From contig NZ_CP121634.1 of assembly GCF_029714945.1 (NCBI RefSeq), forward strand, positions 4,671,001-4,735,000: a DNA stretch of 64,000 bases, written 5' to 3'. Shown piece after piece: positions 11,135 through 28,694 of the stretch. Origin of the DNA: Bradyrhizobium sp. CIAT3101 (GTDB taxonomy: Bacteria > Pseudomonadota > Alphaproteobacteria > Rhizobiales > Xanthobacteraceae). Position 1 is the stretch's first letter; the number at the start of each line of letters is the position of its first letter. The notes beneath the pieces were generated by a model, which ran no database searches, was not told the origin of the DNA, and worked only from the letters and a program-made list of their open reading frames with translations. Made by a program: the position numbers and the translations under genes.

Positions 11135-11159
11135 GGCGAGGCCCCTATTGCTTGGTACG

Positions 11160-12191
11160 TTACGACAGCTTGCCGACGGACTTTTCGAGCAGATCCCAGG
11201 CCTTGTCGCCGTACTTGCCCTTCCACTCGGCGTAGAATCCGGCGGCGCGCAGCTTGTCACGGAACGGCCCGACCTCGGGCTGGTTGAACGTGAGGCCCTT
11301 GCCCGCGAGCTCCTGCCTGACGCTGATATTGAGCTTCTCGGTGTCTTCGCGCTCCTTGACGGCGGCCGCGTTGACGTTCTTGGCGACGATGGTCTTGATG
11401 TCGTCCGGCAGCGCCGCCCAGGCGCGGCGGTTCATCAGGAACCAGAAGCCGTCCCACATGTGGTTGGTCAGCGAGCAGTATTTCTGGACCTCGTAGAGCT
11501 TCGCCGTCGAGATCAGGGCCAGCGGGTTCTCCTGGCCTTCGACGATCTTGGTCTGCAGGGCCGAATAGACTTCGGCGAAATTGATCGAGGCGGGCGAGGC
11601 ATCGAACGCCTTGAACATCGAGGTCCACAGCGGCGACACCGGCACGCGGATCTTGAAGCCCTTGAAATCGTCCGGGCCGTTGATCGGCTTGGTCGAGGAC
11701 GTGGTCTGGCGGAAGCCGTTGTCCCAGATCTTGTCCATGACCTCGAGGCCCGCCTTGTTGATCTCGCCGCGGACATAGGCGCCGAGATCGCCGTCCATGG
11801 CCTTCCAGACCGTGGGGTAATCCGGGAACGCAAAGCCGATGCCGTTGATCGAGGCCGCCGGCACCAGGGTCGCCAGGATCAGGCCGGACAGCGTGAAGAA
11901 CTCGACGCCGCCGGAGCGCACCTGGCTCAGCATGTCGGTGTCGGAGCCGAGCTGGCTGTTCGGAAAGACCTGGAGGTCGAACCGGCCGTTGGTCTCGGTC
12001 TTGATGGCCGCCGCCATCTCACGGGCGCGCGCCACGAACGGATGCGACTCAGGCAGGTTGTTGGCGAACTTGTAGGAGAACTCGGCGGCCTGGGCACGGG
12101 CCACATAGGGCGCGCTCACGCCGCCAAAGACGGCGGTCGCGGCGGAGGCCTTGAGAAGCGTGCGGCGGGAAAAACGCGTCGAAAAGACCAT
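11160..12191 (-). CDS. TRAP transporter substrate-binding protein (DctP), Tat signal
   Basis: This periplasmic binding protein of the DctP family captures the substrate for the adjacent DctQM permease. The N-terminus has a twin-arginine signal (SRRTLLKASAATAVFGG) ending in ARAQA, so export is probably through the Tat pathway, as seen for many TRAP binding proteins. Family features include LPESHPFVARAREMAAAIKTET, QVFPNSQLG, the GFKIRVP segment with the conserved arginine that binds a carboxylate, and FAEVYSALQTKIVEGQENP. ATG at 12191 is preceded by GAGGAAG. The gene heads a dctP-dctQM-acyl-CoA synthetase operon. The upstream region holds a 12-base palindrome. Confidence 0.9.
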   Translation of the reverse strand: MVFSTRFSRRTLLKASAATAVFGGVSAPYVARAQAAEFSYKFANNLPESHPFVARAREMAAAIKTETNGRFDLQVFPNSQLGSDTDMLSQVRSGGVEFFTLSGLILATLVPAASINGIGFAFPDYPTVWKAMDGDLGAYVRGEINKAGLEVMDKIWDNGFRQTTSSTKPINGPDDFKGFKIRVPVSPLWTSMFKAFDASPASINFAEVYSALQTKIVEGQENPLALISTAKLYEVQKYCSLTNHMWDGFWFLMNRRAWAALPDDIKTIVAKNVNAAAVKEREDTEKLNISVRQELAGKGLTFNQPEVGPFRDKLRAAGFYAEWKGKYGDKAWDLLEKSVGKLS

Positions 12192-15431: not shown

Positions 15432-16457
15432 GTGGCTGTTTCCTTCAAGACCCTGGACCTGAACCTGCTCAAGGTCTTCGATGCCGTCATGGAGGAGCGC
15501 AGCGTGCTGCGGGCGAGTCAGCGGGTGGCTCTCAGTCAATCCGCCGTGAGCCATTCGCTCGCCCGGCTCCGCGAGATGTTGGAAGACGATTTGTTCGTGC
15601 GCACCGCGACCGGCATGCAGCCGACCGCGCGCGCATTGACGATGGCGCCGCAGGTTCGCGAGGCCCTGCGATCGCTCGAGGTGGCGGTCGAACTGCCGAG
15701 CTTCGTTCCGGCCGCCTCCACCAGGCAGTTCACCCTGGCCGCCAACGACTTTACCACGATGGTGCTGGCCTCACCGCTCCTGAAGATACTCAGGCACGAG
15801 GCGCCGGCGATCGACCTGATGATCAAGCCGGTGACGCGGATCGACCTCGCCGAACAGATCGACCTTGGTCGCATCGACGTTGCGATCGGCGTCTTCTCGG
15901 ACCCGCCGAGCCGATTCCGGACGTCGCTGTTATTCGAATATGATGACGTGCTGATCGTGGGCGGAAAGCGCAAGCTCGGCCGGATCGACAACGCGGCTCT
16001 GGCGCGCATGCCGCTCGTCGTTGTCTCCTTCGGCGGCGAGCAGGAAGGAGCGATCGGAGGCTTCATCTCCGAGCGCGGCCTCGCCAGGCGATCGGAAATG
16101 TACGACCGCGCGGCGCTCGAACGGGCTTTGTCCGAAAGCGATCGGCCGCCGCGAATAGCAGTTTCGTTGCCGCATTTCCTGGCCCTGCCTGCCCTGCTCG
16201 CGGACTCGGAATTGGCGGCCATCGTTCCGCGGCCATTGGCGCGGGCGTTCGCACGCGCGCATGCGATCACAACGTACGAGCTGCCCTACGCCACGACCCC
16301 GGTCGAGGTCCGGCTGCTATGGCACGAACGCATCGCGGGCGAGCCATCGCACGACTGGCTTCACGACATCCTCAGGCGCGCGACCGAGGACCTCAGGAGC
16401 GAGCGGCCGCCTCTCGAGCAACGGAGTCCCCGGCGTAAGGGGCGGGTCACTCGCTGA
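15432..16457 (+). CDS. LysR-family transcriptional regulator
   Basis: This is a LysR-type regulator with an N-terminal winged helix-turn-helix (LDLNLLKVFDAVMEERSVLRASQRVALSQSAVSHSLARLREMLEDDLFVRTATGMQPTARA, quoted here only as the span of residues 7-65) and a periplasmic-binding-protein-like effector domain. The start GTG at 15432 (VAVSFKTLDLNLL) gives the usual length before the helix-turn-helix. A GTG three codons earlier is also possible. It is divergent from the binding-protein/nitroreductase/PnbB-like operon and probably controls it in response to an aromatic acid, as PnbR does in Pseudomonas. The 3' end overlaps the convergent esterase gene by 11 bases. Confidence 0.87.
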   Translation: MAVSFKTLDLNLLKVFDAVMEERSVLRASQRVALSQSAVSHSLARLREMLEDDLFVRTATGMQPTARALTMAPQVREALRSLEVAVELPSFVPAASTRQFTLAANDFTTMVLASPLLKILRHEAPAIDLMIKPVTRIDLAEQIDLGRIDVAIGVFSDPPSRFRTSLLFEYDDVLIVGGKRKLGRIDNAALARMPLVVVSFGGEQEGAIGGFISERGLARRSEMYDRAALERALSESDRPPRIAVSLPHFLALPALLADSELAAIVPRPLARAFARAHAITTYELPYATTPVEVRLLWHERIAGEPSHDWLHDILRRATEDLRSERPPLEQRSPRRKGRVTR

Positions 16458-18105
16458 CGCCGTAGAACGTCATCTGGTAATCGTGGAACAGCGCGTTGCG
16501 ACGTTCGGCGGTCGTGCCTGCATACGGCGAGGCGCTGGTCGCGCCGGTCGATGTCTCGTTGAATGACATGTAGGTGCCGTTGTTGGAACGGCTGGCCTTG
16601 GGCCAGGCCGGCAAGCCCTCTCCGTTGGGATCGCCCGTCTTGACGAAATTGGCCCACATCGAGGAGGCCTGCTCGGCCAGCTCGAAATCATAGGGCGCCC
16701 ACGGGCGTTGGCCGGGCTCGTTGCGAAGCGAGTTGAAGGTGTACCAGAGGTCGGACGAATGCCACGCGCCGTAGTATTCGCGATCGCGTCCGGGCGTCGG
16801 GTGGTTGAAGTAGAAGACGTAGACCTTGCTGGACGGGTTTCGGGCCGTGAGAAGTGAGCCCGCGATCCGGTTCTGCTCGAGCAGCAGGTCGGCCTGGGCC
16901 TTGAGGTGCTGGCGGTAGGCGTCGCGTTCGGTGGACGCCGGGTACAGCTTCTCGAACGCATATTTGGCGTAGAGCTGTTCGCCGAGCAGCTTTTTCCAGT
17001 AGGCATGGAAGGCCGGGATCTCCATGACCTTGTCAGGCGCACCGTCGAGCGCGGTCCGCTCGTCGGCGACGGTGCCGACGATGACGTCGACGCCATTGAG
17101 GGCACCCTCCTTCGTGAGGTCTACCGAGTCCGTCGTCAGGACGTGACCGTCGATGACCGCGTACATGTTGCTGGTGACGGCGTACATGGCGTCGACCTTG
17201 GCCGGATCTTTGTAGAAGTCCTCGGCCGGCAGTTTCCTGAGATCGTCAAGCGTCTTGCCGGGAAAGGCCTTCTCGAACACCGGCCCGGCCGCAGCCGTCT
17301 TGTCCGCGAGCGTGACGTAGTTCGGCTTTCCCGGCTGCGCCATCACGGTGGGGCTCGAGTGCATGATCGCGCGCTGGAACAGGCCCTTGGAGAGCGGCGT
17401 GGACATGACGCTTCTGACATTGCGCGATCCCGCCGATTGCCCGGCAATGGTCACCTTGCCGGGGTCACCGCCGAACGCGCCGATGTTCTTGTGCACCCAT
17501 TTCAGCGCCTCCACGGCGTCGAGGATCGCAAAGTTTCCGGCGCCCTCCTCCTTCATTCCGGGCAAAGCGAGGAAGCCCATGATGTTCAGGCGATAGGCGG
17601 CCGAGACGACGATGATACCCTTGGCGGCGAGCTTGGCCGCGTTGAACTCGACCTCGGAATTGTTGCCGTGGCGGTTGCCGCCGCCGTGGTAGTACACCAT
17701 CACCGGAAGCGCCGCGCCGGCAGGTTTTGCCGGCACCCAGATGTTCAGATAGAGGCAGTCTTCGCTGTCTTTGGGATCCTTCGCCGGGTCCCAATAATAT
17801 TCATTGAAGTAGAACGTGCCCGGCGGATTGGCGCTGGCGAGTTGGGTGCACCGGTTTGGCCACGCGCCGCTGTCCTTGACGCCCGACCAGGGCACCACGG
17901 GCTGAGGTGACTTCCAGCGGTTGCCGCCCACCGGAGGTGCTGCGAACGGCACCGCTTTGTAGATGGAAACTCCGGCGACATCGGATGCGACACCGCGGAT
18001 TTGCCCGCCCTCCACGGCGATGGCGGCATCGGGTGTCTGCGCCATGGCGGGCGAAACGGTCAGTCCCGCCACAGCCACGACGGAAAGCATCCTGCTGAGC
18101 TTCAT
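16447..18105 (-). CDS. Secreted type-B carboxylesterase
   Basis: This alpha/beta-hydrolase of the type-B carboxylesterase family (552 residues) has a Sec signal peptide (MKLSRMLSVVAVAGLTVSPAMA). The oxyanion hole is YYHGGGN, the nucleophile motif is GQSAGS, and the histidine is in GAWHSSDLWYTF, matching the GAxHGxELxYVF motif of the family. EDCLYLNIWVP is a further signature. It would hydrolyse esters in the periplasm or outside the cell. Family members include para-nitrobenzyl esterases, which fits the nitro cluster next door only by association. It is transcribed on the minus strand, 148 bases after the KstD-like gene, and may be read with that operon or from its own promoter. Confidence 0.88.
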   Translation of the reverse strand: MKLSRMLSVVAVAGLTVSPAMAQTPDAAIAVEGGQIRGVASDVAGVSIYKAVPFAAPPVGGNRWKSPQPVVPWSGVKDSGAWPNRCTQLASANPPGTFYFNEYYWDPAKDPKDSEDCLYLNIWVPAKPAGAALPVMVYYHGGGNRHGNNSEVEFNAAKLAAKGIIVVSAAYRLNIMGFLALPGMKEEGAGNFAILDAVEALKWVHKNIGAFGGDPGKVTIAGQSAGSRNVRSVMSTPLSKGLFQRAIMHSSPTVMAQPGKPNYVTLADKTAAAGPVFEKAFPGKTLDDLRKLPAEDFYKDPAKVDAMYAVTSNMYAVIDGHVLTTDSVDLTKEGALNGVDVIVGTVADERTALDGAPDKVMEIPAFHAYWKKLLGEQLYAKYAFEKLYPASTERDAYRQHLKAQADLLLEQNRIAGSLLTARNPSSKVYVFYFNHPTPGRDREYYGAWHSSDLWYTFNSLRNEPGQRPWAPYDFELAEQASSMWANFVKTGDPNGEGLPAWPKASRSNNGTYMSFNETSTGATSASPYAGTTAERRNALFHDYQMTFYGVSE

Positions 18106-18253: not shown

Positions 18254-19984
18254 TTAGCGCGGTGGCGGATCGATAAATCTGCGCAACGTTCCCGCAGCAT
18301 CCATCGCGGCGCACCAGCCGAATACGAGCGCCGGGCCGATCATCGTGCCAGGACCCGGGTACGTTCCGCGAAAGATCGAGGATGCATCGGTGCCGACCGC
18401 GTACAGCCCGGATAATCTCTTCCCGTCGCGAGACAACACCCGGCCGCATGAATCCGTGCGCAAGCCGGCGCTGCTGGCGAGGTCCGACGGCCAGACGGCC
18501 ACCGCATAATATGGCCCTGGCCCGATCCGTCGCAGGCATGGGTTTGGCTTGGCCTTGGGATCGCCATTGAACCGATTCAGTTCGCTGGCGCCCCGGCCGA
18601 AGTCTTCGTCGATCCCGGTTTCTGCAAAGCCGTTGTACCGCTCGACTGTCTGCGCGAGCTGGTCGGGGTCCACGCCGATCTTGCGGGCCAGGGCCGCGAC
18701 GGTGTCGCCTTCCATCAGATATCCGGCCCCCAGGAAGCCGCTCAAATTCCTGGTCCCGGGGTGAACCAACCCGAGGCCAAAATCCCTGATGAAGGCACGG
18801 TCGCAGATCATGAAAGCTGGTGTCGTTGACGCTGCCGACGCGTTCGAGCGCAGCATCGCTGCGACGAAGTCGTGGTAGGAGTCCGCTTCATTCACGAAGC
18901 GGCGCCCCGATTTGTTCACGGCCAGCAGTCCCGGCTTGGCCCGATCGAGCATGATGTGCGGGAAGACCGAGACATGGCCGTCGGCCTGCGCCATCACCGA
19001 GCTCGGCATCCACAAGGCCGGGCTTTCGAGGTCGCGCTCGATCACGGCGTTGGCACGCTCGGCCGCCAAAATGCCGTCTCCGGTGTTTGATGAGGACACA
19101 AGCGAAAAGCGCTGCGCCGCCTCCGGAAACAGCCGCTCCCGAAGCTCGCGGCTCCAGCCGATGCCGCCTGTCGCCAGCACCACGCCCTTGCGCGCACGTA
19201 TGGCCATCTCTCCGGTCGGAGACGACAGCACGGCACCGACGATGTCGTCGCCTTCACAGATGATCTCGCGAAGTGCTGTCCCAAACCGCAAGTCGACGCC
19301 GGTGCGACGGACACTGTCGAACAGTCTCGCGACAAGCGCATTGCCCATGATCAGGCGCGTCCCGCGCTTGTAGCTCAGCCGATCCAGGGCATGGCGCGTG
19401 AGGAGGCTGACGACGTGCTTGAAGTGTGTCCAGTTGCGGAAGGGCGCCAGCAAGGGCGGAATGTCTGCCTTTCCGACCATCAGGCCGCCGAGAACCATGA
19501 ACTCCCGGCGCGGCGGCCTGACCCGGGCAAAGTCTCGGCCCAGCCGGCGGCCGTCGAACGGAAGTGCCCCAAGGGCCCGCCCGCCGATCGCCGCGCCCGG
19601 CAGGTTCTTGTAGTCGGGGTGGACCGGGGGCGCCACGAATTGCACGCTCGTCTTCTGCTCGAGATAATCGAGCACGATCGGGCCTGCCTTCAGGAACATG
19701 TCCAGTCGTTCGTCCGTCGCGTGCGCGCCGAGCATCGCGGCGAGATAGGTGCGCGCGGCCTCGACCGTATCTGGCGTGCCCGCGCGCTGTCCCTGCCGGT
19801 TGCCCGGAATCCAGACGGTCCCGGCGGAGGTTGCGGTCGTGCCGCCCACCATGTCCGACTTTTCGCAAAGGATGACATCGAGTCCCTCGAGGGCGCTGAC
19901 CAACGCGGCGGTCATGCCGGCCGCACCGGCGCCGACGACCAGCAGATCGGTCTCCACGTCGAAGGAGCGATCGCCTTGCGGCAT
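18254..19984 (-). CDS. FAD-dependent dehydrogenase, 3-ketosteroid-dehydrogenase (KstD)-like
   Basis: This flavoprotein belongs to the fumarate reductase/3-oxosteroid 1-dehydrogenase superfamily (576 residues). The FAD-binding motif VVGAGAAGMTAA is near residue 20, with GGTTATSAGTVWIPGN after it, and the second FAD segment (GLYAVGTDASSIFRGTYPGPGTMIGPALVFG) lies near the C-terminus. The TYPGPG sequence corresponds to the Tyr and Gly that polarise the ring ketone in KstD enzymes, so a cyclic ketone substrate is likely. ATG at 19984 lies 16 bases after the TIM-barrel gene. It is the last gene of the TRAP2-aroQ operon. A steroid substrate is not implied: no steroid genes are present and the neighbours act on small ring acids. 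Confidence 0.82.
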   Translation of the reverse strand: MPQGDRSFDVETDLLVVGAGAAGMTAALVSALEGLDVILCEKSDMVGGTTATSAGTVWIPGNRQGQRAGTPDTVEAARTYLAAMLGAHATDERLDMFLKAGPIVLDYLEQKTSVQFVAPPVHPDYKNLPGAAIGGRALGALPFDGRRLGRDFARVRPPRREFMVLGGLMVGKADIPPLLAPFRNWTHFKHVVSLLTRHALDRLSYKRGTRLIMGNALVARLFDSVRRTGVDLRFGTALREIICEGDDIVGAVLSSPTGEMAIRARKGVVLATGGIGWSRELRERLFPEAAQRFSLVSSSNTGDGILAAERANAVIERDLESPALWMPSSVMAQADGHVSVFPHIMLDRAKPGLLAVNKSGRRFVNEADSYHDFVAAMLRSNASAASTTPAFMICDRAFIRDFGLGLVHPGTRNLSGFLGAGYLMEGDTVAALARKIGVDPDQLAQTVERYNGFAETGIDEDFGRGASELNRFNGDPKAKPNPCLRRIGPGPYYAVAVWPSDLASSAGLRTDSCGRVLSRDGKRLSGLYAVGTDASSIFRGTYPGPGTMIGPALVFGWCAAMDAAGTLRRFIDPPPR

Positions 19985-20000
19985 TCGGAGCACCCTTCCC

Positions 20001-20819
20001 TCAGGACTTCGCGCGCGCCCTCTCGACCACGGCCTTGCCCGCCGCGAGTGCCCGGCGCGCCCGGGTTTCGGCATCGACGGTCTTCGCGAGCTGGACGGTC
20101 GGAACCTCGATGCTGATGGTGAGGTCGTCCGGTATCGCCCTCGTCAGTTCAACAAGGTCGATGCCGCCCTCGCCCGGAAACATCCGCTCCTCGCGCGCGG
20201 CATGGATGAGCTGCTCCGTCGTCGTCGGACGCTCAGTCGGACCGTCGCAGAGCTGCCAATAGTGCAGCCGATGTGCCGGGATGGTGCGGAGATCGGCAAG
20301 CGAGCTCTGCGATCGATCGAAATGCAGCGCATCGACCAGAATGCCGGCAGAGGGATGGTCGACATCGGCGACGATCCGCATCGCGGTCTTGAGGTCCGGA
20401 ACGCTGGTCCAGGGCATGAATTCCAGGTCGGACGTCAGTCCGAACGCGGCAGCCGCCTCGCAAAACCGATGGTAGCGGTCCGAAAACCGCGTCAGATCCG
20501 GATCGTAGGCGGCGACGAGGATGTGCCGCGCGCCAAGACGCGCGCCCGTTTCGAAGAAGGGCGTGAAGGACGCGACATCGGTTTCCGGCCTGAACGCGAC
20601 GACCTCGAGATCGGCAACGCTCACGCCCGTCGCCTGCAATCGCGCCAGCGTCTCCCGCAAGAGCGGTGCATCGTCCATCAGGCGGTAGGCAATTCCGCCC
20701 GGCGTTGCCGGCAGCAGCCTTAGCCCGACTTTCTCGTAGCCGCAGCGCGCCGCCAGCGCGATCATCTCGGGCGGCGCAAGCTCGAGCACGGTCAGGGCGG
20801 CGAGCGAGAAACTTGCCAT
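20001..20819 (-). CDS. TIM-barrel isomerase/dehydratase of the xylose-isomerase-like family
   Basis: This 272-residue metal-dependent TIM-barrel protein belongs to the sugar phosphate isomerase/epimerase superfamily, which also contains 3-dehydroshikimate dehydratases. Candidate metal ligands are Glu133 (SDLEFMPW), Asp163 (ILVDALHF), Gln189 (YWQLCDG) and Glu238 (SIEVP). The Glu/Asp/Gln/Glu set and its spacing resemble what I remember for the QsuB-type 3-dehydroshikimate dehydratase domain. Its start ATG overlaps the stop of the preceding gene (ATGA), and it lies between the unknown gene and the flavoenzyme in the TRAP2 operon with an AroQ homologue. Dehydration of 3-dehydroshikimate or an analogue is a plausible role; epimerisation is the alternative. 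Confidence 0.75.
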   Translation of the reverse strand: MASFSLAALTVLELAPPEMIALAARCGYEKVGLRLLPATPGGIAYRLMDDAPLLRETLARLQATGVSVADLEVVAFRPETDVASFTPFFETGARLGARHILVAAYDPDLTRFSDRYHRFCEAAAAFGLTSDLEFMPWTSVPDLKTAMRIVADVDHPSAGILVDALHFDRSQSSLADLRTIPAHRLHYWQLCDGPTERPTTTEQLIHAAREERMFPGEGGIDLVELTRAIPDDLTISIEVPTVQLAKTVDAETRARRALAAGKAVVERARAKS

Positions 20820-21475
20820 CAGCCGAAATCCGCGATGCGGGCGTCGAGCGTAAACATGGTTTGATAGACTTCCGGCTCGCTCGCTCGCCCAAGAATGTCA
20901 GGCGCAATCGTGCGCGCCCGCTGCAAGGCGGCCTGTAGCGAGGCTTCATCGAGCGCCTCGATCAACAGAAGGCCCGAGAAGAAGCCCTCCTCCTTGCGCA
21001 TGCCCTTTTCCGTCGTCGGCACCGATGTCCTCGCCTCGTCGGTTGCTCCGATCTGCACGGCGGCGACCCCGTCGCACGCGACCAGCGCCTCGGCCAATGT
21101 CATGGGGTTACCAGGCAGCTTCTCGATCCGGAGCGCCAGAATTGTGGCCCCCTCGCCCCGCCCTGCCCGCGCCAGCATGGCGCCGCCGCCCCGCAAGAAA
21201 TTGCCAAGCCTTGGCATGATGCGCTGTGACCACGGCGTCGGCGCGTTGAGGCGTGCCAGATAGGCTTCGCCGTCGAGCACCTCGGGTGTTTCCAGCTCGT
21301 ACAGGATGAAGAAGCGATTGATAGCGTCCCGCGTGGTGCAGAACACGCGCGATGCGAGAAACCCCTTCGTGGTCACGCGCTCCGTGGTGTGCTCGCGCGT
21401 CAGCCAGTGCCGGTAATCGGTCAGGTCCTGCGCTGCGACATCGCTCCAGATGGCGAGAAATCCCGATCCGCGCAT
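20819..21475 (-). CDS. Conserved protein of unknown function, two ferredoxin-like (EthD/DUF4286-like) halves
   Basis: I do not recognise a function. The 218 residues appear to form two alpha/beta halves. The first (FLAIWSDVAAQDLTDYRHWLTREHTTERV, quoted by its ends at residues 5-33) has the xxYxxWxxxEH pattern of dimeric alpha-beta barrel proteins of the EthD/DUF4286 type. The second (LLLIEALDEASLQAAL) is a strand-helix unit of the same sort. Such small barrels are often auxiliary enzymes or isomerases in ring-degradation clusters. It is tightly packed in the operon: 15 bases after aroQ and overlapping the TIM-barrel start by one base. That suggests a role in the same pathway. Confidence 0.6.
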   Translation of the reverse strand: MRGSGFLAIWSDVAAQDLTDYRHWLTREHTTERVTTKGFLASRVFCTTRDAINRFFILYELETPEVLDGEAYLARLNAPTPWSQRIMPRLGNFLRGGGAMLARAGRGEGATILALRIEKLPGNPMTLAEALVACDGVAAVQIGATDEARTSVPTTEKGMRKEEGFFSGLLLIEALDEASLQAALQRARTIAPDILGRASEPEVYQTMFTLDARIADFG

Positions 21476-21490
21476 CCCGCTCTCCTGAGG

Positions 21491-21985
21491 CTATGCCCGA
21501 CCCGCGACCGCTAGCCCATGAAGGGCCGGCGGGATCGTGGCAGGCAATTGTCCGAGCTTTTGGACGGCCGCCAGCATCGCGGCGAGATAGCCGTACGGAC
21601 CCAGGCCGCAGATCACGGCCGTGCAGGCACTCGACGTGATCGAGTGGCGGTGCAGCTCGTCGCGCGCGTGGATGTTGGAGATATGCAGCTCGATCTTCAC
21701 GCCTTCAAAAATCTTGAGCGCATCGATCAGGGCGATCGAGGTGAAGGAATAGCCGGCCGGGTTGATGATGATCGCATCCGCGTTGCCATGAGCGGACTGG
21801 ATCAGGCTGACGAGCTCGCCTTCCATGTTGGACTGATGGAACGCGATCGAGACGCCGAGCTGGTCGGCCAGCGCCCGGCAGCTCGCCTCGATTTCCTGCA
21901 GCGTCGTCCGGCCGTAGATATGCGGCTCCCTGATGCCGAGGAAATTGAGATTGGGCCCGTTGAGGATCATGATGTTAGCGGCCAT
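21491..21985 (-). CDS. aroQ: Type II 3-dehydroquinate dehydratase homologue with altered active site
   Basis: This 164-residue protein has the full fold signature of AroQ, which dehydrates 3-dehydroquinate. Using the numbering of the Mycobacterium enzyme, which this sequence matches without gaps, Asn12, Arg19, Tyr24 (general base), Asn75, Asp88, His101 and Arg108 are kept. His81 is replaced by Phe (GYSFTS instead of the usual THTS), Arg87 by Ile, and Arg112 by His (LHRHS instead of FRHHS). These positions contact the substrate, so specificity may be shifted. The gene sits in a catabolic TRAP operon rather than with accBC, as the biosynthetic aroQ often does. A quinate/shikimate-like or modified cyclohexane acid substrate is inferred. 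Confidence 0.8.
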   Translation of the reverse strand: MAANIMILNGPNLNFLGIREPHIYGRTTLQEIEASCRALADQLGVSIAFHQSNMEGELVSLIQSAHGNADAIIINPAGYSFTSIALIDALKIFEGVKIELHISNIHARDELHRHSITSSACTAVICGLGPYGYLAAMLAAVQKLGQLPATIPPALHGLAVAGRA

Positions 21986-22017
21986 TGCCCTGCTCCGTTC
22001 CATTGTATCCGATGCGA

Positions 22018-23298
22018 CTAGCCGCCGAACCATCTTGCCGGGATCGTGACCAGCCCCGGGAACAATACCATTGCGAACAGGACGATCAGTTGCGCGATCA
22101 TGAAGGGCCAGACGCCCTTGATGATGTCCTCCATGCTGATCCTGGAGACGCCGCAGACGACGTTGAGCACGATTCCGACCGGTGGCGTGATCAGGCCGAT
22201 GGAATTGTTGATGATGAAGAGCACGCCGAAATAAACCGGGTCGATATGGGCCGCCTTGATGATCGGCATCAGGATCGGCGTCAGGATCAGGATGGTCGGC
22301 GTCATGTCGAGCGCCGTGCCCACGATCACGACCACGACCATGATCGCGAGCATCAGGATGGTGTTGTTGCCCATGAAGGGTTTTAAGAGATCGACCACCT
22401 GGGCGGAGATCTCGGACACCGTGATCAGCCAGGACGACACCAGCGCGGCGGCGACCAGGAACATGACGACGCTCGTCGTCACGGCCGACGACACCATCAC
22501 CGCGTAAACTTCCGACCATTTCAGCTCGCGATAGATGCAGGTCGCGACGAACAGCGAATAGACGGCGACGACGACGCCGGCCTCGGTCGGCGTGAAGATG
22601 CCGAAGCGCAGGCCCACGATGATGATCCCGGGCAGCATCAACGCCCAGAAACCGTCGATGACGGCGTGCAGGATCTCGCGCAGCGAGGCCCGCGGCGGCG
22701 GCGTCAGGTTCTCCTTGCGCACGACCCAGTACCAGGCGGCGCAGAGGCCCAATCCGAGCAGCAGTCCCGGCACGATGCCGGCCAGAAACAGCTTGGAGAT
22801 CGAGACGTTGGCGGCGACGCCGAAGATCACGAAGCCGATGCTGGGCGGGATGACCGGGCCGATGACGCCGCCGGCGGCGACGAGGCCCGCCGCGTAGGTC
22901 TTCTTGTGCCCCGCCGCCACCATCATCGGCACCAGCAGCGCCGCCAGCGCGGCGGCGTCGGCGGCCGCCGACCCCGACAGCGACGACAGGATGCAGGCCG
23001 CCATGATCGTGACGTAACCAAGCCCGCCGCGGAAATGACCGACCGCAACAAGGGCGACATTGACGATGCGTTTGGCCAGCCCGCCCTTGTTCATGATCTC
23101 GCCGGCGAGCATGAAGAAGGGAATCGCCATCAGCGGAAAGCTGTCGGCGCCGTTGATGACGTTCTGCGCCACGATCTGGGAGTCGAACATGTCGATCGTG
23201 CTCATCAGCGCGACGCCGCAGATGAGGAGCGCGAAGGCGATCGGCATGCCCAGCGCCATGGCGCCGAGCAGCGAGAAGGTGAAGACGGCGATCGTCAT
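22018..23298 (-). CDS. dctM: TRAP transporter large permease (DctM)
   Basis: This integral membrane protein of 426 residues has about 12 predicted hydrophobic segments and the DctM signatures GMPIAFALLICGVALM, GGLGYVTIMAACILSSLSGSAAADAAALAALLVP and GGVIGPVIPPSIGFVIFGVAANVS. It catalyses sodium-driven uptake of the ligand delivered by DctP. It starts one base after the dctQ stop codon. Downstream, aroQ starts 32 bases later, so import and the first catabolic steps are one transcription unit. Confidence 0.92.
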   Translation of the reverse strand: MTIAVFTFSLLGAMALGMPIAFALLICGVALMSTIDMFDSQIVAQNVINGADSFPLMAIPFFMLAGEIMNKGGLAKRIVNVALVAVGHFRGGLGYVTIMAACILSSLSGSAAADAAALAALLVPMMVAAGHKKTYAAGLVAAGGVIGPVIPPSIGFVIFGVAANVSISKLFLAGIVPGLLLGLGLCAAWYWVVRKENLTPPPRASLREILHAVIDGFWALMLPGIIIVGLRFGIFTPTEAGVVVAVYSLFVATCIYRELKWSEVYAVMVSSAVTTSVVMFLVAAALVSSWLITVSEISAQVVDLLKPFMGNNTILMLAIMVVVVIVGTALDMTPTILILTPILMPIIKAAHIDPVYFGVLFIINNSIGLITPPVGIVLNVVCGVSRISMEDIIKGVWPFMIAQLIVLFAMVLFPGLVTIPARWFGG

Positions 23299-23299
23299 G

Positions 23300-23809
23300 T
23301 CACTGCTCCTCCGATTCCCGGACGGCCACCATGTCCTCCTCGCTCGCCTGCCCGCTGATCACGCGGTACAGATCGTAGAGAAGGATGATTGCGGTCGATG
23401 CGCCGAAGATCACGCCGACCGCGTAGAAGATGCCCATCGACAGACCGGTCGCCGGCGCGCGATCGTCGAGGTTGATGATGGTCTGCCGCCAGCTGCCGGA
23501 GAGCAGAAGCCAGTCGGCAAACAACATCAGGCAGTAATTGAGCACGAAGCAGATGCGCTTGCCGGAGGCCGGCAGCTTCCGGATCAGGGTGTCGACGCCG
23601 AGATGGGCGTGCTCGCGCATCGCGACGATGGCCCCGAGGAAGGTCAGCCAGACCAGCAGCCAGCGCGACAGTTCCTCGGAGATCGTGATGCCGGAGTTGA
23701 AGCCGTAACGCAGCACCACGTTGCCGAAGACCAGGACCACCATGACCGCAAGACATGCGGCAATGACGGCCTTCAGGAAGGTGCAATAGAGATCGAGAGC
23801 GCGCGCCAT
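23300..23809 (-). CDS. dctQ: TRAP transporter small permease (DctQ)
   Basis: This is a 169-residue membrane protein with four hydrophobic segments and the DctQ pattern NVVLRYGFNSGITISEELSRWLLVWLTFLGAIVAMREHAHLGVD (residues about 30-73). It is the small subunit that joins DctM and DctP in the transporter. ATG at 23809 (MARALDLYC) is preferred over an upstream in-frame ATG at 23848, because it removes a 13-residue polar tail not usual for the family. The gene lies 76 bases after dctP and one base before dctM. Confidence 0.88.
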   Translation of the reverse strand: MARALDLYCTFLKAVIAACLAVMVVLVFGNVVLRYGFNSGITISEELSRWLLVWLTFLGAIVAMREHAHLGVDTLIRKLPASGKRICFVLNYCLMLFADWLLLSGSWRQTIINLDDRAPATGLSMGIFYAVGVIFGASTAIILLYDLYRVISGQASEEDMVAVRESEEQ

Positions 23810-23885
23810 GCGTGACGTCCGGGCAAAGGAGGAGCGTGAGCCGGCCATGGGCCGGCTCGGCCGCCTGCGTTAACGAAGAGGTGGA

Positions 23886-24905
23886 CTACTTCACGTCCTT
23901 GCGGATGCGCTCGACTTCGTCGTTGAAGAGCTTCACCGTCTCGGGGCGAAAGCCGGCAGAGATCTTGTCCGCGACCGGCTGCGACGTCTTGCGCATGCGC
24001 TCGGTCTCCTCGGGCGCGATCGCGTTGTACTGCATGCCCTTGGCCTGCAATTCCGCGAGCGCCTTTTCGGTCTGAGCGCGGGTCTGCTCCTTCTGGTAGC
24101 CGCGGCTCTCTGCATAGGCTTCGCGCATCAGGCGCTGCTCGGTCGGCGACAGCTTGTCCCAGAACGCCTTGCTCACCAGGATGATGTTCAGCGTGAAGGT
24201 GTGGTTGGTGGCGGAGACGTATTTCTGCACTTCGTAGAATTTGTTGGAGAGGATGACCGTGTAGGGATTCTCCTCGCCGTCGACGGTGCGGGTCTCCAGC
24301 GCCGAATACAGCTCGCCGAAGGCCATCGGGACCGGATTGGCTTTGAAGGCGCCGAAGGTCTCGAGATAGACCGGGTTCGGAATGACGCGCAGCTTGAGGC
24401 CGCTGAAATCCTCGAGCTTGGTGATGGGCCGTGTGCTGTTGGTGACGTTGCGGAAGCCGAGGCCCCAATAGCCGAGACCGATCAGGCCCTTCGACGGCAA
24501 GGTATCGAGCATCGCCGTGCCGAATTTTCCGGTCGCGAGCGCATCGGCCTGCTCGGTCGTGTTGAACAGGAACGGGAAATCGACGAGGCCGAACTCCGGA
24601 ATGACGGTTGCGAGTGAGGTCGTGGAGGCCGACAGCATTTCCTGGGTGCCGCCGCGTAGCGCGGATTGCTGCTGCAATTCGTTGCCGAGTTGTGAGGCCG
24701 CGAACTCGCGGACCTTCATCTTGCCCCCGCTCTTCGCTAGCAGGATCTCGGCGAATTTCTGCACGCCAAAGCTGACGGGGTGATCGGTGTTGTTCAGGTG
24801 CCCCCACCTGATCGTCCGCTCCTGAATGTCATCGGCGGCGGATGCGCCGACTGTCAGCGCCACGCAGATCGCCGTCGCAGACAGCGCCCGTACCCACAAG
24901 CTCAT
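23886..24905 (-). CDS. dctP: TRAP transporter substrate-binding protein (DctP), Sec signal
   Basis: This periplasmic solute-binding protein of the DctP family (339 residues) has a Sec signal peptide (MSLWVRALSATAICVALTVGASA). Family signatures are IRWGHLNNTDHPVSFGVQKFAEILLAKSGGK, the substrate-clamp arginine region GLKLRVIPNP, and FGELYSALETRTVDGEENP. The ligand is probably a carboxylate. It is the first gene of the seven-gene minus-strand operon that continues with dctQ, dctM, aroQ, an unknown gene, a TIM-barrel gene and a KstD-like gene. It is divergent from a GntR regulator across an AT-rich 228-base region. Confidence 0.92.
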   Translation of the reverse strand: MSLWVRALSATAICVALTVGASAADDIQERTIRWGHLNNTDHPVSFGVQKFAEILLAKSGGKMKVREFAASQLGNELQQQSALRGGTQEMLSASTTSLATVIPEFGLVDFPFLFNTTEQADALATGKFGTAMLDTLPSKGLIGLGYWGLGFRNVTNSTRPITKLEDFSGLKLRVIPNPVYLETFGAFKANPVPMAFGELYSALETRTVDGEENPYTVILSNKFYEVQKYVSATNHTFTLNIILVSKAFWDKLSPTEQRLMREAYAESRGYQKEQTRAQTEKALAELQAKGMQYNAIAPEETERMRKTSQPVADKISAGFRPETVKLFNDEVERIRKDVK

Positions 24906-25042: not shown

Positions 25043-25133
25043 CAGATATCGACGATCTGCTATAGTGCTGGCAACGTTGATGGTTCGCCTGCTCTTGCGC
25101 AGCGGGCGGTCCGGACAAGCGGGATCAGAAGGC

Positions 25134-25793
25134 ATGACGGCACTCGAGGAACGGTCTTTGTCGGCGGGCGACAGCGGCTATCAGCGCATCCGCTCCGACA
25201 TCATTTTCGGCGTGCTGACGCCCTCCGGGCGTCTCAAGCTCGATGCCATGAAGGAGGATTACGGCGTCAGCATCTCGACGCTGCGTGAGATCCTCAATCG
25301 CCTGACGTCGGAAGGTTTCGTGGTGGCCGAAGGCCAGCGCGGCTTCGAGGTGGCGCCGATCTCGATCCAGAACCTGCGCGAGCTCGCGGATCTGCGCATC
25401 CTGCTGGAGCATCACGCGATGGCCGAGTCGTTTCGGGCCGGTGACGTCGAGTGGGAGGGACGCGTGGTGTCGGCGCATCACAAGCTGGCCGCGACCGAGC
25501 GCACCGTCCTCAAGGAGGGCGACGATCCTGAGCTGCGCAAGCGCTACGACGGCGAATTCCACCAGGCGCTGATTTCGAGCTGCGGCTCGCGCGAGCTGAT
25601 GCACACGCACGCGATCGTATTCGACAAATACTTCCGCTACGCGCTGCGCTATCGCGGCACCGAGACGATCAACCAGCACAAGGCGCTGCTGGAATGCGCG
25701 CTGAAGCGCGACATCAAGAGCGCGAGGACCGTGCTGAGCGAGCACATCAATGGCTGCGTCGCGCATGCCCTGTCGTCCTGGAAGGACGCCTGA
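25134..25793 (+). CDS. GntR-family transcriptional regulator (FCD domain)
   Basis: This 219-residue regulator has an N-terminal winged helix-turn-helix (YQRIRSDIIFGVLTPSGRLKLDAMKEDYGVSISTLREILNRLTSEGFV, residues 16-63) and a C-terminal all-helical FCD ligand-binding domain (LRELADLRILLEHHAM, FHQALISSCGSRELM, HKALLECALKRD, VLSEHI). The metal-binding histidines typical of FCD domains (FHQAL, HKALL, LSEHI) are present. The ATG at 25134 gives the usual N-terminus; an upstream ATG at 25080 would add 18 residues. It is divergent from the dctPQM-aroQ operon and is followed by the M24 and SMP-30 genes. It is probably the local repressor that senses the imported acid. Confidence 0.9.
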   Translation: MTALEERSLSAGDSGYQRIRSDIIFGVLTPSGRLKLDAMKEDYGVSISTLREILNRLTSEGFVVAEGQRGFEVAPISIQNLRELADLRILLEHHAMAESFRAGDVEWEGRVVSAHHKLAATERTVLKEGDDPELRKRYDGEFHQALISSCGSRELMHTHAIVFDKYFRYALRYRGTETINQHKALLECALKRDIKSARTVLSEHINGCVAHALSSWKDA

Positions 25794-25843: not shown

Positions 25844-27016
25844 ATGCACGCCAACATTCCATTCTCCACGGCCAGGCTCGACGGCCTGCTCGACGATGCC
25901 GGCATCGACGTCCTGATCGTGACGTCGAAGCACAACATCCAGTACCTTCTCGGCGGGTACTATCATTTCCAGTTCGACTACATGGAAGCGATCGGCATCA
26001 GCCGGTATCTGCCCGTCTTCGTCTACGTGAAGGGCGACCTGGACAAGTCGGCTTACATCGCCAACCGCAACGAGCGGGACAGCATCCACAACAGAACCAG
26101 CGCCGGATACTGGATGCCGCCGGTCGTGTTCGGGTCGTCGACCTCGGTCGAGGCGATGACGCTCGCGCTTGGGCATATCAAGGCCATCGCGACGCGCACG
26201 CTTCGCGTCGGCGCGGAGCTGTCGTTCCTGCCGGCCGATGCCGCGGATGTGCTGCGCCGGGAGCTTCCCGATTGCCCGCTTGTCGAGGCGATGCGGCCGC
26301 TGGAGAAGCTGCGCTCGATCAAGACCGCGGCCGAGCTGGAAATTCTCCGCGAGGCGTCCGAGCGCGTGGTCGCGTCGATGATGGACGCGGCGAGCCTTAC
26401 CCGCGCCGGACAGAGCAAGCGCGAAATCATCGATCATCTGCGCCGCGCGGAGCTGTCGCGCGACATGATCTTCGAATACGCGTTGGTGACGATGGGCACG
26501 AGCTTCAACCGGGCGCCGTCCGAGCAGCGCCTCGCGCCCGGCGATATCGTCTCGCTGGATTCAGGCGGAAATTACAAAGGCTATATCGGCGATCTCTGCC
26601 GGATGGCCGTGCACGGGACGCCGGACGGCGAGCTGGTCGATCTGCTCGACGAGATCGATTTGATCCAGCAGGCAGCCCGCGCGCCGATCCGCGCGGGTCT
26701 TGACGGCTGCGAGATCTACGCCGCCGCCACCGAGGCGCTGGCGCGATCGCCTCACGGCAAGCAGATGCATTTCGTCGCCCACGGTATGGGCATCGTCAGC
26801 CACGAAGCGCCGCGCCTGACAGCGAGCGGCCCCATTCCCTATCCCGCCGACGACGCGAACGCGCCACTGCAAGCCGGCATGGTCATCTCGATCGAAACCA
26901 CGCTGCCCCACCCCCGACGGGGCTTCATCAAGCTCGAGGATACGATCGCCGTGACCCCGGATGGCTATCAGGCCTTTGGCGACGGTTCGCGCGGCTGGAA
27001 CCGGATCCCGGCATGA
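25844..27016 (+). CDS. M24-family metallopeptidase-like protein (Xaa-Pro aminopeptidase/creatinase fold)
   Basis: This is a 390-residue protein of the pita-bread fold. The N-terminal creatinase-like domain (ARLDGLLDDAGIDVLIVTSKHNIQYLLGG) is followed by the catalytic domain. All five metal ligands of active M24 enzymes can be seen: the aspartates in SLDSGGNYKGYIGDLCR, the histidine in HFVAHGMGI, and the glutamates in SIETTL and KLEDTI. It is therefore probably an active amidohydrolase or dipeptidase rather than a creatinase. It lies 50 bases after the GntR gene and overlaps the SMP-30 gene by four bases. A role in cleaving an amide or C-N bond in the substrate of the adjoining operon is possible. 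Confidence 0.85.
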   Translation: MHANIPFSTARLDGLLDDAGIDVLIVTSKHNIQYLLGGYYHFQFDYMEAIGISRYLPVFVYVKGDLDKSAYIANRNERDSIHNRTSAGYWMPPVVFGSSTSVEAMTLALGHIKAIATRTLRVGAELSFLPADAADVLRRELPDCPLVEAMRPLEKLRSIKTAAELEILREASERVVASMMDAASLTRAGQSKREIIDHLRRAELSRDMIFEYALVTMGTSFNRAPSEQRLAPGDIVSLDSGGNYKGYIGDLCRMAVHGTPDGELVDLLDEIDLIQQAARAPIRAGLDGCEIYAAATEALARSPHGKQMHFVAHGMGIVSHEAPRLTASGPIPYPADDANAPLQAGMVISIETTLPHPRRGFIKLEDTIAVTPDGYQAFGDGSRGWNRIPA

Positions 27017-27882
27017 GCGCGAATTCGATCTCCCCGCACAAGGTCGAGACCGCCGTCGCCAGCGCGGATATCCTGGGCGAGACGCCCTTGTGGTGCGACC
27101 GCTCCCGCAAGCTGTGGTGGATCGACATCGACGGCAGGCTGCATCAATCCTTCGACCCGGCGACGGGCGCGCATCATGTCACCTCCTACGAATGCCAATT
27201 CCTCGGCAGCCAGGCCCTGACGGCGGACGGTGCGCATCTGCTCGCGCAGGATTTGACCCTCCACCATCGCCAGACCGCGATCGAGGTCGAACGCGGCCTC
27301 GACAACCGTCTCAACGACGGCCGCGTCGACGCCCGTGGCCGCCTGTGGATCGGCACCATGGACAACCAGCTGCATCGCCCGAACGGCGCGCTTTATCGCG
27401 TGACCGGCGACGGCCAGGTCGCACGCATCTTCGACGGCGTCATCGTCACCAACGGGATTGCGTTCTCGCCCGACCATCGCACGCTCTATTTCACCGACAC
27501 GCGGCGGTATCGCACCTTTGCGTTCGACTTCGATCTCGACGACGGCGTGATCCGAAACAGGCGCCTGTTTGCCGATTACAGCGCCTCGCAGGAGCGACCT
27601 GACGGCGCCTGCGTTGATGTGACCGGCGGGCTATGGACGGCATTCTTCTCGGGCGGCCGGGTGGTGCGCTATCGGCCGGACGGAACGATCGACACCGTCA
27701 TCCCGCTGCCTGTGACCAATCCGACATGCCTGTGTTTTGGCGGCAGCGACCTCAAAACGCTGTACGTGACCACGGCCCGGAAATTCCTGGACCGGCAGCA
27801 GCTCAGCGTCGAGCCTCGGGCCGGTCATCTTCTCGCCATCCACGGCGTTGCGCAGGGTCTGCCGGAACACCGTTTCGGCTAG
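27013..27882 (+). CDS. SMP-30/gluconolactonase/LRE family protein
   Basis: This is a six-bladed beta-propeller lactonase of 289 residues. Family signatures are ILGETPLWCDRSRKLWWIDI (Glu metal ligand), LNDGRVDARGRLWIGTM (Asn ligand), GIAFSPDHRTLYFTDT and RPDGACVDVTGGLW (Asp ligand). Members hydrolyse sugar lactones or related esters with a divalent metal. Its ATG overlaps the TGA of the M24 gene (ATGA), so the two are translationally coupled. Placement beside the GntR-controlled TRAP/aroQ operon suggests that a lactone is formed or opened in that pathway. The last codons converge with the next gene on the minus strand. Confidence 0.87.
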   Translation: MSANSISPHKVETAVASADILGETPLWCDRSRKLWWIDIDGRLHQSFDPATGAHHVTSYECQFLGSQALTADGAHLLAQDLTLHHRQTAIEVERGLDNRLNDGRVDARGRLWIGTMDNQLHRPNGALYRVTGDGQVARIFDGVIVTNGIAFSPDHRTLYFTDTRRYRTFAFDFDLDDGVIRNRRLFADYSASQERPDGACVDVTGGLWTAFFSGGRVVRYRPDGTIDTVIPLPVTNPTCLCFGGSDLKTLYVTTARKFLDRQQLSVEPRAGHLLAIHGVAQGLPEHRFG

Positions 27883-28694
27883 CGCAGCGGCAACAGCTCC
27901 AACTGGCTCTGCGCCTTCTTCACGGCCGCCGCAAACCAGCTCTGGCTCGGTGCCTCCTTAGCGAAGCACTTTGTGTAGGCGTCCATCGCCTGATCTTCCT
28001 TGGCCATGGAATCCTGCGGGACCTTTTTGGCCATCATCTGCTTCCAGACCTTCTCGCAAGCCGGGATCTCGGCCGTCTTCACCGCGTCGGTCGCTGCCAG
28101 GAAGAAGACCTTATCGCCCTGGATCGCGACCACGTCGATCTCGCGCGGCGGCCCCTTCAAATCGCCATTGCCACGGACGCCGAGGACGGCGACCGCAGCG
28201 CCCGCGGATGCGGGCTTGGTGATCGGTAGCTCCGCGTATTTGGCGAAGGCGGCGTCCTGGATCGCCTGATAGTAGAAGCGGTCCGACCTGAACGCGGCAT
28301 CGATCTCCTGCGGCATGCCGTCCTTGCCGTGCTCGCGCAGCCAGTGCTTGAGCAGCGCGGTCGTGGTCACCACGGCCTGCTGCTTGTCGCCTTCGGTGGC
28401 GAAGCCGAGCCCGTCGAGATGGCCGAAGCCGATGTCTTCCCTGAACAGCGTGTCGACGTTCGACTTGCCCTCGGCCGGCAGCCCCTTGATCGTGACGGGA
28501 CCGACCAGGCCGCGCAGTGCCCCGGTCAGCTCGTTAAGCGCCGCGTCGTGCTGCTTGAAGGTCTCGTCGCTCTCCTTGGCCTTCGAGAATTTCGCGATGT
28601 AGCGGTCGCGCAGATCGAGATAGTGCTGCTCGGGAGACGCCGCGTGTGCTGATGCGGCGAAGGCGAGCAGGCAGAGCAAGGCGAACGATCTCAT
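27879..28694 (-). CDS. Secreted/periplasmic protein of unknown function
   Basis: This is a 271-residue protein with a clear Sec signal peptide (MRSFALLCLLAFAASAHA). The mature part begins SPEQHYLDLRDRYIAKFSK and is mostly helical with many charged residues. Cysteines occur in IPACEKVW and YTKCFAKE and could form a disulfide. I do not recognise a family. It stands alone on the minus strand, overlapping the SMP-30 gene end by four bases and facing the PilZ-XRE gene across a 200-base divergent region. No function is proposed. Confidence 0.6.
   Translation of the reverse strand: MRSFALLCLLAFAASAHAASPEQHYLDLRDRYIAKFSKAKESDETFKQHDAALNELTGALRGLVGPVTIKGLPAEGKSNVDTLFREDIGFGHLDGLGFATEGDKQQAVVTTTALLKHWLREHGKDGMPQEIDAAFRSDRFYYQAIQDAAFAKYAELPITKPASAGAAVAVLGVRGNGDLKGPPREIDVVAIQGDKVFFLAATDAVKTAEIPACEKVWKQMMAKKVPQDSMAKEDQAMDAYTKCFAKEAPSQSWFAAAVKKAQSQLELLPLR

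Follow-up and report, generated by a model that had tools for sequence, protein, structure and literature searches.

Known systems and overview of the operon

In the known bacterial route for quinate and shikimate catabolism, QuiA or AroE, AroQ or QuiB, and QuiC lead to protocatechuate. Both acids are abundant in plants, and Bradyrhizobium lives on and in plant roots. Here, we describe a run of 7 minus-strand genes of Bradyrhizobium sp. CIAT3101, located at positions 18254–24905 of a 64,000-nucleotide stretch (the window; contig NZ_CP121634.1, positions 4,671,001 to 4,735,000) that belongs to a 9.37-Mb single-contig genome. With the known route, this operon shares an AroQ homolog and a triosephosphate isomerase (TIM) barrel protein resembling dehydroshikimate dehydratases, and relatives of the operon are accompanied by AroE, QuiC, and pca genes. 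It differs from that route by a flavin adenine dinucleotide (FAD)-dependent, KstD-like dehydrogenase (hereafter flavoenzyme), a 218-amino acid (aa) protein with a predicted alpha/beta-barrel fold, a tripartite ATP-independent periplasmic (TRAP) importer, and the lack of an AroE-type dehydrogenase in the operon. We favor, with some reservation, its assignment as a catabolic operon for cyclohexane carboxylates of the quinate/shikimate class, with protocatechuate as the likely product.

An earlier note, made from the sequence alone, had proposed that a quinate/shikimate-like acid is imported, dehydrated by AroQ, and converted to an aromatic product with the help of a dehydroshikimate dehydratase-like TIM barrel and a KstD-like dehydrogenase. 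Sequence comparison supports this outline, as relatives of the operon lie with AroE, QuiC, pcaHG, or ligAB. The note had also considered the pathway to be a candidate for an undescribed one, which applies to a part of it only. Because the conversion of dehydroquinate via dehydroshikimate to protocatechuate is already known, the pathway in its entirety cannot be called undescribed, whereas neither the flavoenzyme nor the 218-aa protein has a described role in a quinate-type pathway. The core of the operon is ordinary, and these 2 proteins set the variant apart. No publication on such an operon was found among the open-access papers searched, judged from titles and the beginnings of abstracts.

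Gene organization and proposed route

The 7 genes follow each other head to tail in the order dctP, dctQ, dctM, aroQ, 218-aa-protein gene, TIM barrel gene, and flavoenzyme gene. Open reading frames, Pfam, and NCBIfam reproduced this arrangement, its gaps, and a divergent GntR gene as the earlier note had described them. From dctP to the flavoenzyme gene, the intergenic gaps amount to 76 (37 with the upstream ATG of dctQ), 1, 32, 15, −1, and 16 bases. Pfam assigned DctP, DctQ, DctM, DHquinase_II, AP_endonuc_2, and FAD_binding_2 to the gene products, and no family to the 218-aa protein. The only terminator-like minus-strand site within the operon is a 6-pair stem inside the 218-aa-protein gene, and 2 such sites were observed in the scanned stretch, compared to a mean of 4.3 after shuffling.

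The importer comprises the periplasmic solute-binding protein DctP (23886..24905, minus strand; PF03480, 291 bits; nearest PDB chains 4p47 and 7bbr), the small permease DctQ (23300..23848, minus strand; PF04290, 97.5 bits; a shorter start near 23809 results in the 76-base gap), and the YiaN-like large permease DctM (22018..23298, minus strand; PF06808, 405 bits). DctP and DctM exceed the cut-offs of TIGR00787 (244 vs 175 bits) and TIGR00786 (472 vs 268 bits), respectively. The equivalog cut-offs of YiaMNO, the 2,3-diketo-L-gulonate transporter, were missed (YiaN, 531 of 800; YiaM, 99 of 260).

In the route that we propose, the TRAP importer would take in either the acid itself or its 3-keto derivative. 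AroQ would then remove the C1 hydroxyl of 3-dehydroquinate to yield 3-dehydroshikimate, as its family and context suggest, and the TIM barrel protein would aromatize 3-dehydroshikimate to protocatechuate, a step to which structure, residues, and context point. Protocatechuate would then be processed by pca genes elsewhere in the genome. The flavoenzyme would act on a related ring acid, introducing a double bond adjacent to its C3 ketone; we favor the formation of C1=C2 in an analog carrying hydrogen at C1 (a dihydroshikimate-type ketone), by which dehydration through AroQ and dehydrogenation through the flavoenzyme would feed the same 3-dehydroshikimate pool. The 218-aa alpha/beta-barrel protein would be an additional enzyme of the route. 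If this holds true, the operon type would explain the potential use of such acids by roughly one-third of Bradyrhizobium genomes (the 218-aa-protein gene being present in 69 of 195 sampled), and a large unnamed protein family (1,811 clustered relatives) would gain a setting. Moreover, 2 of its proteins would be enzymes open to direct assay: a dehydrogenase of the KstD type acting on hydroxylated ring acids, and possibly a new kind of dehydroshikimate dehydratase, the latter being useful for protocatechuate or gallate production.

Enzymes of the operon

The product of aroQ (21491..21985, minus strand), a homolog of type II 3-dehydroquinate dehydratases, scores 173.8 bits against Pfam DHquinase_II (gathering score 23.3) and exceeds the subfamily cut-off of PRK05395.1-3 (190.8 vs 171 bits), but stays below the equivalog cut-off of TIGR01088 (166.0 vs 169.85 bits, full length). 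It retains Asn12, Arg19, Tyr24, Asn75, Asp88, Glu99, His101, Ser103, and Arg108, which include the catalytic residues and those for the carboxylate, C1, and C4. According to PMC6011038, type II dehydroquinases bind the C5 hydroxyl through His81 and Arg112, and the C4 hydroxyl through Asp88 of the neighboring subunit. Phe81 together with His or Tyr at position 112 was found in 102 of 106 AroQ matches of the loci described below (some genomes being counted twice). Among the remaining 4, three retain the standard His81/Arg112 pair, two of them being sightings of the housekeeping AroQ and the third an additional copy in locus L026; the fourth, from S. meliloti, harbors Thr81 and Arg112. Of 29 AroQ loci fetched in a class-wide search, 12 show the changed pair, 14 the standard pair, and 3 Met or Thr81 with Arg112. 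QuiC is encoded at 4 of the 12 changed-pair loci, 3 of which also carry AroE; one of these 4 (G262) has a flavoenzyme homolog of 44% identity about 14 kb away. As the clade adjoins QuiC, Phe81/His112 marks a catabolic dehydroquinase clade and is, by itself, no proof of another substrate; ordinary dehydroquinate is the likeliest substrate of the operon's AroQ.

The TIM barrel protein (20001..20819, minus strand; AP_endonuc_2) has its nearest folds in Listeria Lmo2234, which we take to be the QuiC2 of Listeria, in IolI, and in QuiC1. From QuiC1 (PDB 5hmq) and Lmo2234 (PDB 2g0w), it differs as a single-domain protein without the half resembling 4-hydroxyphenylpyruvate dioxygenase, at 20–22% identity. 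The active-site residues of QuiC1 were taken as listed in PMC7442255, and 8 of 10 could be mapped by HMMER alignments and the TIM barrel sequence. Glu134, Asp165, His168, Gln191, Arg210, and Glu239 of QuiC1 correspond to Glu133, Asp163, His166, Gln189, Arg212, and Glu238, with Glu239 being paired by position after the aligned stretch, while Ser206 and Leu136 are replaced by Ala and Met, and Arg64 and Leu97 lie outside the mapping. The 4 residues highlighted earlier (Glu133, Asp163, Gln189, and Glu238) are present and match the metal set of QuiC1. On the basis of this comparison, the protein is likely a 3-dehydroshikimate dehydratase.

The flavoenzyme (18254..19984, minus strand) probably starts at 19984, consistent with the 16-base gap, and comprises 576 aa. 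It aligns over its full length to the 3-oxosteroid dehydrogenases 7p18 and 4c3x and, in the alignment to 4c3x, keeps the KstD catalytic set as Tyr125, Tyr370, Tyr542, and Gly546 (Tyr119, Tyr318, Tyr487, and Gly491 in KstD1 numbering). The same set is kept in 74 of the 75 flavoenzyme matches of the loci, and the ketone-binding motif of KstD that the earlier note had reported was found as YPGPG from Tyr542. While sharing this set and the superfamily with KstD and the cyclohexanecarboxylate desaturases ChcC1/ChcC2, the flavoenzyme falls below the equivalog cut-offs of KstD (447 of 789, 434 of 788, and 350 of 793) and the cut-offs of ChcC1/ChcC2 (319 of 1000 and 445 of 900). It also remains below PRK12843 (719 of 758), its nearest NCBIfam model, which has no stated reaction; a homolog from the loci termed class C below passes this model (825). 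Given the KstD alignment and the catalytic set, the flavoenzyme should desaturate a ring ketone, the identity of which we infer.

For the 218-aa protein (20819..21475, minus strand), no Pfam or NCBIfam match was obtained, and a PDB sequence search returned no row below E 0.66. Its AlphaFold2 model (predicted local distance difference test score, 94.3) contains 2 ferredoxin-like halves that match solved double-barrel proteins, which suggests a double alpha/beta-barrel fold. Members of this fold include a sulfur oxygenase reductase (6m35), an anthrone-oxidase-like protein (5f9p), and the monooxygenase PenE (9kdp), with 8–9% identity to the 218-aa protein and no shared motif shown. The function of the protein is not readable from the modeled fold, and the fold alone is no proof of oxygenase activity. 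In 7 of 27 hand-picked genomes, full-length QuiC and TIM barrel genes are both missing, and each of these 7 encodes the 218-aa protein; as a hint at a sole dehydratase, this count says little, since nearly all 27 genomes were chosen for carrying the protein or a homolog (the one known exception, G395, lacks it beside the flavoenzyme gene). We regard it as unlikely that the 218-aa protein is a 3-dehydroshikimate dehydratase whose alpha/beta-barrel fold differs from the TIM-barrel classes, with the flavoenzyme providing a dehydrogenative entry (or an exit to gallate) next to dehydration. An apparent 659-aa fusion of the 218-aa protein in locus L053 was discarded, as the extra 440 residues lack a Pfam match and appear to represent a chance frame, with the protein's own start lying inside.

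Conservation across loci

With the 218-aa protein as bait, matches at E 0.001 were found in 40 of 60 genomes, a set that contains the genome of the window, and 18 of them show at least 47% identity over most of the length. When a single genome was scanned for each species, 110 candidate stretches were obtained, 91 of which were confirmed and 80 kept as named loci. The gene-order search called for by the earlier note recovered the full row of dctP-dctQ-dctM-aroQ-218-aa protein-TIM barrel-flavoenzyme in 14 of these 80 loci. In 68, no more than 2.5 kb separates aroQ from the 218-aa-protein gene; both the full-row recurrence and the aroQ linkage exceed chance. The other 12 loci lack a visible aroQ, some of them ending at contig edges. 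Outside the loci grouped as Bradyrhizobium (including L099, whose record is titled Frankia, but which is 88–97% like the window), aroQ is present in 15 of 23. TRAP genes were found within 7 kb of the 218-aa-protein gene in 46 loci, and a gene for a Tct-type binding protein was located at most 2.5 kb away in 14. The flavoenzyme gene lies at a distance of up to 9 kb in 33 loci and the TIM barrel gene at up to 4.5 kb in 26. From these counts, aroQ, the 218-aa-protein gene, and an importer form a stable core, while the TIM barrel and flavoenzyme genes come and go. AroE-type genes lie within 9 kb in 15 of the 80 loci; the dioxygenase was seen in 12 of the 80, pcaHG in 6, and QuiC in 4. The earlier statement that no quinate dehydrogenase is present is therefore correct for the window operon, the only part of its genome searched for one, but not for all of the relatives.

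The closest named relative seen, Bradyrhizobium sp. CCGUVB4N (L102), harbors gene copies at 95–99% tblastn identity. In window-type loci, SMP30, M24, and GntR genes are divergent from TRAP-aroQ-218-aa protein-TIM barrel-flavoenzyme. A second type (5 loci, and a sixth that matches from the dioxygenase onward) carries pcaF-pcaH-pcaG-dioxygenase, flavoenzyme, and GntR divergent from TRAP-aroQ-218-aa protein-TIM barrel-(LysR)-AroE. For a locus of this type (L028), PcaG, PcaH, and AroE exceeded curated cut-offs, and an overlapping stretch (L043) provided PcaF. A third type (class C, 6 loci) has the order pcaF-flavoenzyme-aroQ-218-aa protein-(TIM barrel)-dioxygenase-TctC, followed on the longer contigs (L109 and L217–L219) by LysR and lig genes. 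Beyond the genus, QuiC and AroE adjoin TRAP-aroQ-218-aa protein in Phreatobacter (2 loci) and Ferrovibrio (1 locus), and 9 Roseomonas-type loci have the order GntR, aroQ, TctC, 218-aa protein. In an alphaproteobacterium of another family (L162), the flavoenzyme, pcaH, pcaG, pcaB-like (below cut-off), AroE-like (30% identity), and 218-aa-protein genes form one row. Plasmid-borne variants include GntR-flavoenzyme-218-aa protein-alcohol dehydrogenase in Sagittula, with TIM barrel and TRAP genes nearby, ATP-binding cassette (ABC) transporter-AroE-short-chain dehydrogenase/reductase (SDR)-TIM barrel-flavoenzyme-flavoenzyme-NIPSNAP in Rhizobium sullae, ABC-AroE-SDR-flavoenzyme in Paraburkholderia, and flavoenzyme genes with QuiC and pcaGH in Paracoccus.

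Five loci consist of TRAP-aroQ-218-aa protein without TIM barrel or flavoenzyme genes, near a coenzyme A-transferase III gene; some of these also have a radical S-adenosylmethionine gene and tctA nearby. Decaying copies were observed as well: fragments of the 218-aa-protein gene beside aroQ (L042, genome G014), a short flavoenzyme gene on a B. japonicum plasmid (L256), and in-frame stops in flavoenzyme (G359 and G005) and TIM barrel genes (G019).

Across the 195 Bradyrhizobium genomes, a flavoenzyme homolog at E 1e-145 was found in 39, 32 of which show at least 69% identity; the 7 homologs at 44–65% identity were dropped from the association test. The 218-aa protein is also encoded in 27 of the 32 genomes, compared to 11.3 expected (Fisher p 6e-10, which is only a guide given that the genomes are related), and both genes lie within 10 kb of each other in 26 of the 27. 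At all 5 exceptions, an aroQ homolog belongs to the same gene run as the flavoenzyme gene. Two of them (L222 and L226) have TRAP-aroQ-218-aa protein-flavoenzyme with a 218-aa protein of only 32–34% identity, L225 has a 29% homolog of it, L223 shows aroQ-flavoenzyme-GntR without it, and in L224, it was not found in the fetched stretch; TRAP genes lie in between in L224 and L225. A dioxygenase gene, of the hydroxyquinol type by its PDB neighbors, reaches at least 81% identity in 98 of the 195 genomes, 73 of which lack a flavoenzyme at 69% identity or more. As it is common in the genus without the flavoenzyme, this gene is not specific to the operon. The window's genome carries its copy at a distant site, within a thiolase-pcaH-pcaG cluster; this position of the hydroxyquinol-1,2-dioxygenase-like gene, next to pcaH, pcaG, and a thiolase gene, was noted in Bradyrhizobium for L178 and the genus sample.

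Alternative explanations

Several observations weigh against a quinate-type route to protocatechuate. The TIM barrel protein consists of one 272-aa domain and reaches 34.7 bits with the model NF042435 for the two-domain QuiC (cut-off 1200), although all 18 full-length QuiC matches also fall below this cut-off. IolI, an isomerase, is as close to it as QuiC1 is, and the own genome encodes a full-length QuiC elsewhere, at 9.13 Mb, so that the TIM barrel protein may be redundant or of another function. AroQ has lost both contacts to the C5 hydroxyl (Phe81 and His112). The flavoenzyme and TIM barrel genes vary independently across the loci, and more distant flavoenzyme homologs frequently occur in other settings. 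Among 11 fetched flavoenzyme loci of other families, matches to the TIM barrel, AroE-type, or 218-aa proteins occur only in L161 and L162; no AroE or AroQ is listed in the (incomplete) gene tables of the plasmid-borne flavoenzyme loci of Azospirillum, Methylobacterium, Delftia, and Neorhizobium (47–52% identity). Furthermore, in S. meliloti Rm41, the module has as neighbors an intradiol dioxygenase and a gene annotated as maleylacetate reductase, which points to an aromatic compound other than protocatechuate.

It is rather unlikely that the flavoenzyme dehydrogenates C4-C5 of 3-dehydroshikimate, with tautomerization to gallate, by which the operon would branch off the quinate pathway toward gallate. 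This bond is alpha,beta to the C3 ketone and away from the existing double bond, as for KstD acting on 3-keto-4-ene steroids, and the flavoenzyme gene co-occurs with aroQ. In addition, the class C locus L109 encodes 4-oxalomesaconate (OMA) tautomerase and LigK, both over their cut-offs, and 2 amidohydrolase-family proteins downstream of flavoenzyme-aroQ-218-aa protein-dioxygenase. However, the flavoenzyme and the TIM barrel protein would compete for one substrate, and no OMA tautomerase match was found in the own genome. The class C type also has LigA and LigB over their cut-offs (L219), reading as a protocatechuate 4,5-cleavage operon, which, together with the dioxygenase gene being common and mostly without the flavoenzyme, weakens gallate as a proven end product. 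A different substrate could be a 3-dehydroquinate without a free C5 hydroxyl (5-deoxy or 5-substituted), which AroQ would dehydrate and the flavoenzyme would dehydrogenate at C4-C5 to protocatechuate, as no C5 hydroxyl would remain to be eliminated. The replaced C5-hydroxyl contacts, next to the retained carboxylate, C1, C4, and catalytic residues of the window AroQ, would fit this. We nevertheless judge it to be quite improbable, as it would render the TIM barrel protein pointless and the residue change may tune affinity instead; moreover, it is weakened by the changed-pair clade, which lies with QuiC at 4 of 12 further loci without a flavoenzyme match in the fetched stretch, QuiC being an enzyme that eliminates the C5 hydroxyl.

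Clusters of S. meliloti Rm41 (L255, plasmid pRM41A) and S. americanum (L252, plasmid A) join AroQ, the flavoenzyme, TIM-type proteins, and a 218-aa-protein homolog to an intradiol dioxygenase and to a protein annotated as maleylacetate reductase. Together with the class C order pcaF-flavoenzyme-aroQ-218-aa protein-dioxygenase and the balance of 3-dehydroquinate minus CO2, H2O, and 2H, which equals C6H6O3, they would suit hydroxyquinol or another trihydroxybenzene as the product, opened by a hydroxyquinol-1,2-dioxygenase-like enzyme and converted via maleylacetate to 3-oxoadipate. For the window operon, this is highly improbable: the oxygen pattern of decarboxylated 3-dehydroshikimate is that of pyrogallol rather than hydroxyquinol, no NCBIfam model for maleylacetate reductase matched the S. 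meliloti gene, and the S. meliloti AroQ lacks Phe81 (Thr81, Arg112) and may serve another pathway. The 2 clusters, which also hold NIPSNAP/NTF2-like proteins, possibly represent a separate alicyclic-to-hydroxyquinol pathway. Finally, the likeness to quinate enzymes might be superficial and the operon might degrade a sugar acid or cyclitol, considering that the closest model for dctM is that of the 2,3-diketogulonate permease, that IolI is among the 3 nearest folds of the TIM barrel protein, and that the regulator is CsiR-like. This, too, seems very unlikely in view of the linkage to AroE, QuiC, pcaHG, and ligAB in several families and the carboxylate-binding and catalytic residues kept in AroQ.

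Genomic surroundings

The divergent GntR/FCD regulator is encoded on the plus strand (25131..25793; PF00392 and PF07729; 101 bits against the CsiR model, cut-off 218). It is followed on the same strand by an M24 peptidase/creatinase-like gene (25847..27016; PF00557; start placed by eye in a frame that is open from 25694) and an SMP-30/gluconolactonase-like gene (27013..27882; PF08450, 246 bits), both of which are kept near the GntR gene in window-type loci. Directly downstream of the flavoenzyme gene, an esterase-like protein is encoded (16447–18105, minus strand) with a weak LipP1 match and, by eye, a signal-peptide-like start. Its gene holds the same place in L100 and L102, and the protein could release ring acids from esters. 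A second, long TRAP large-permease gene (9251–11260, minus strand; 669 aa) lies about 7 kb from the operon. A 271-aa protein (27879–28694, minus strand) also has a signal-peptide-like start by eye and matched neither Pfam nor NCBIfam within the limits applied; its homologs are encoded directly behind the flavoenzyme gene in 2 loci (L023 and L024) and close to SMP30 in others.

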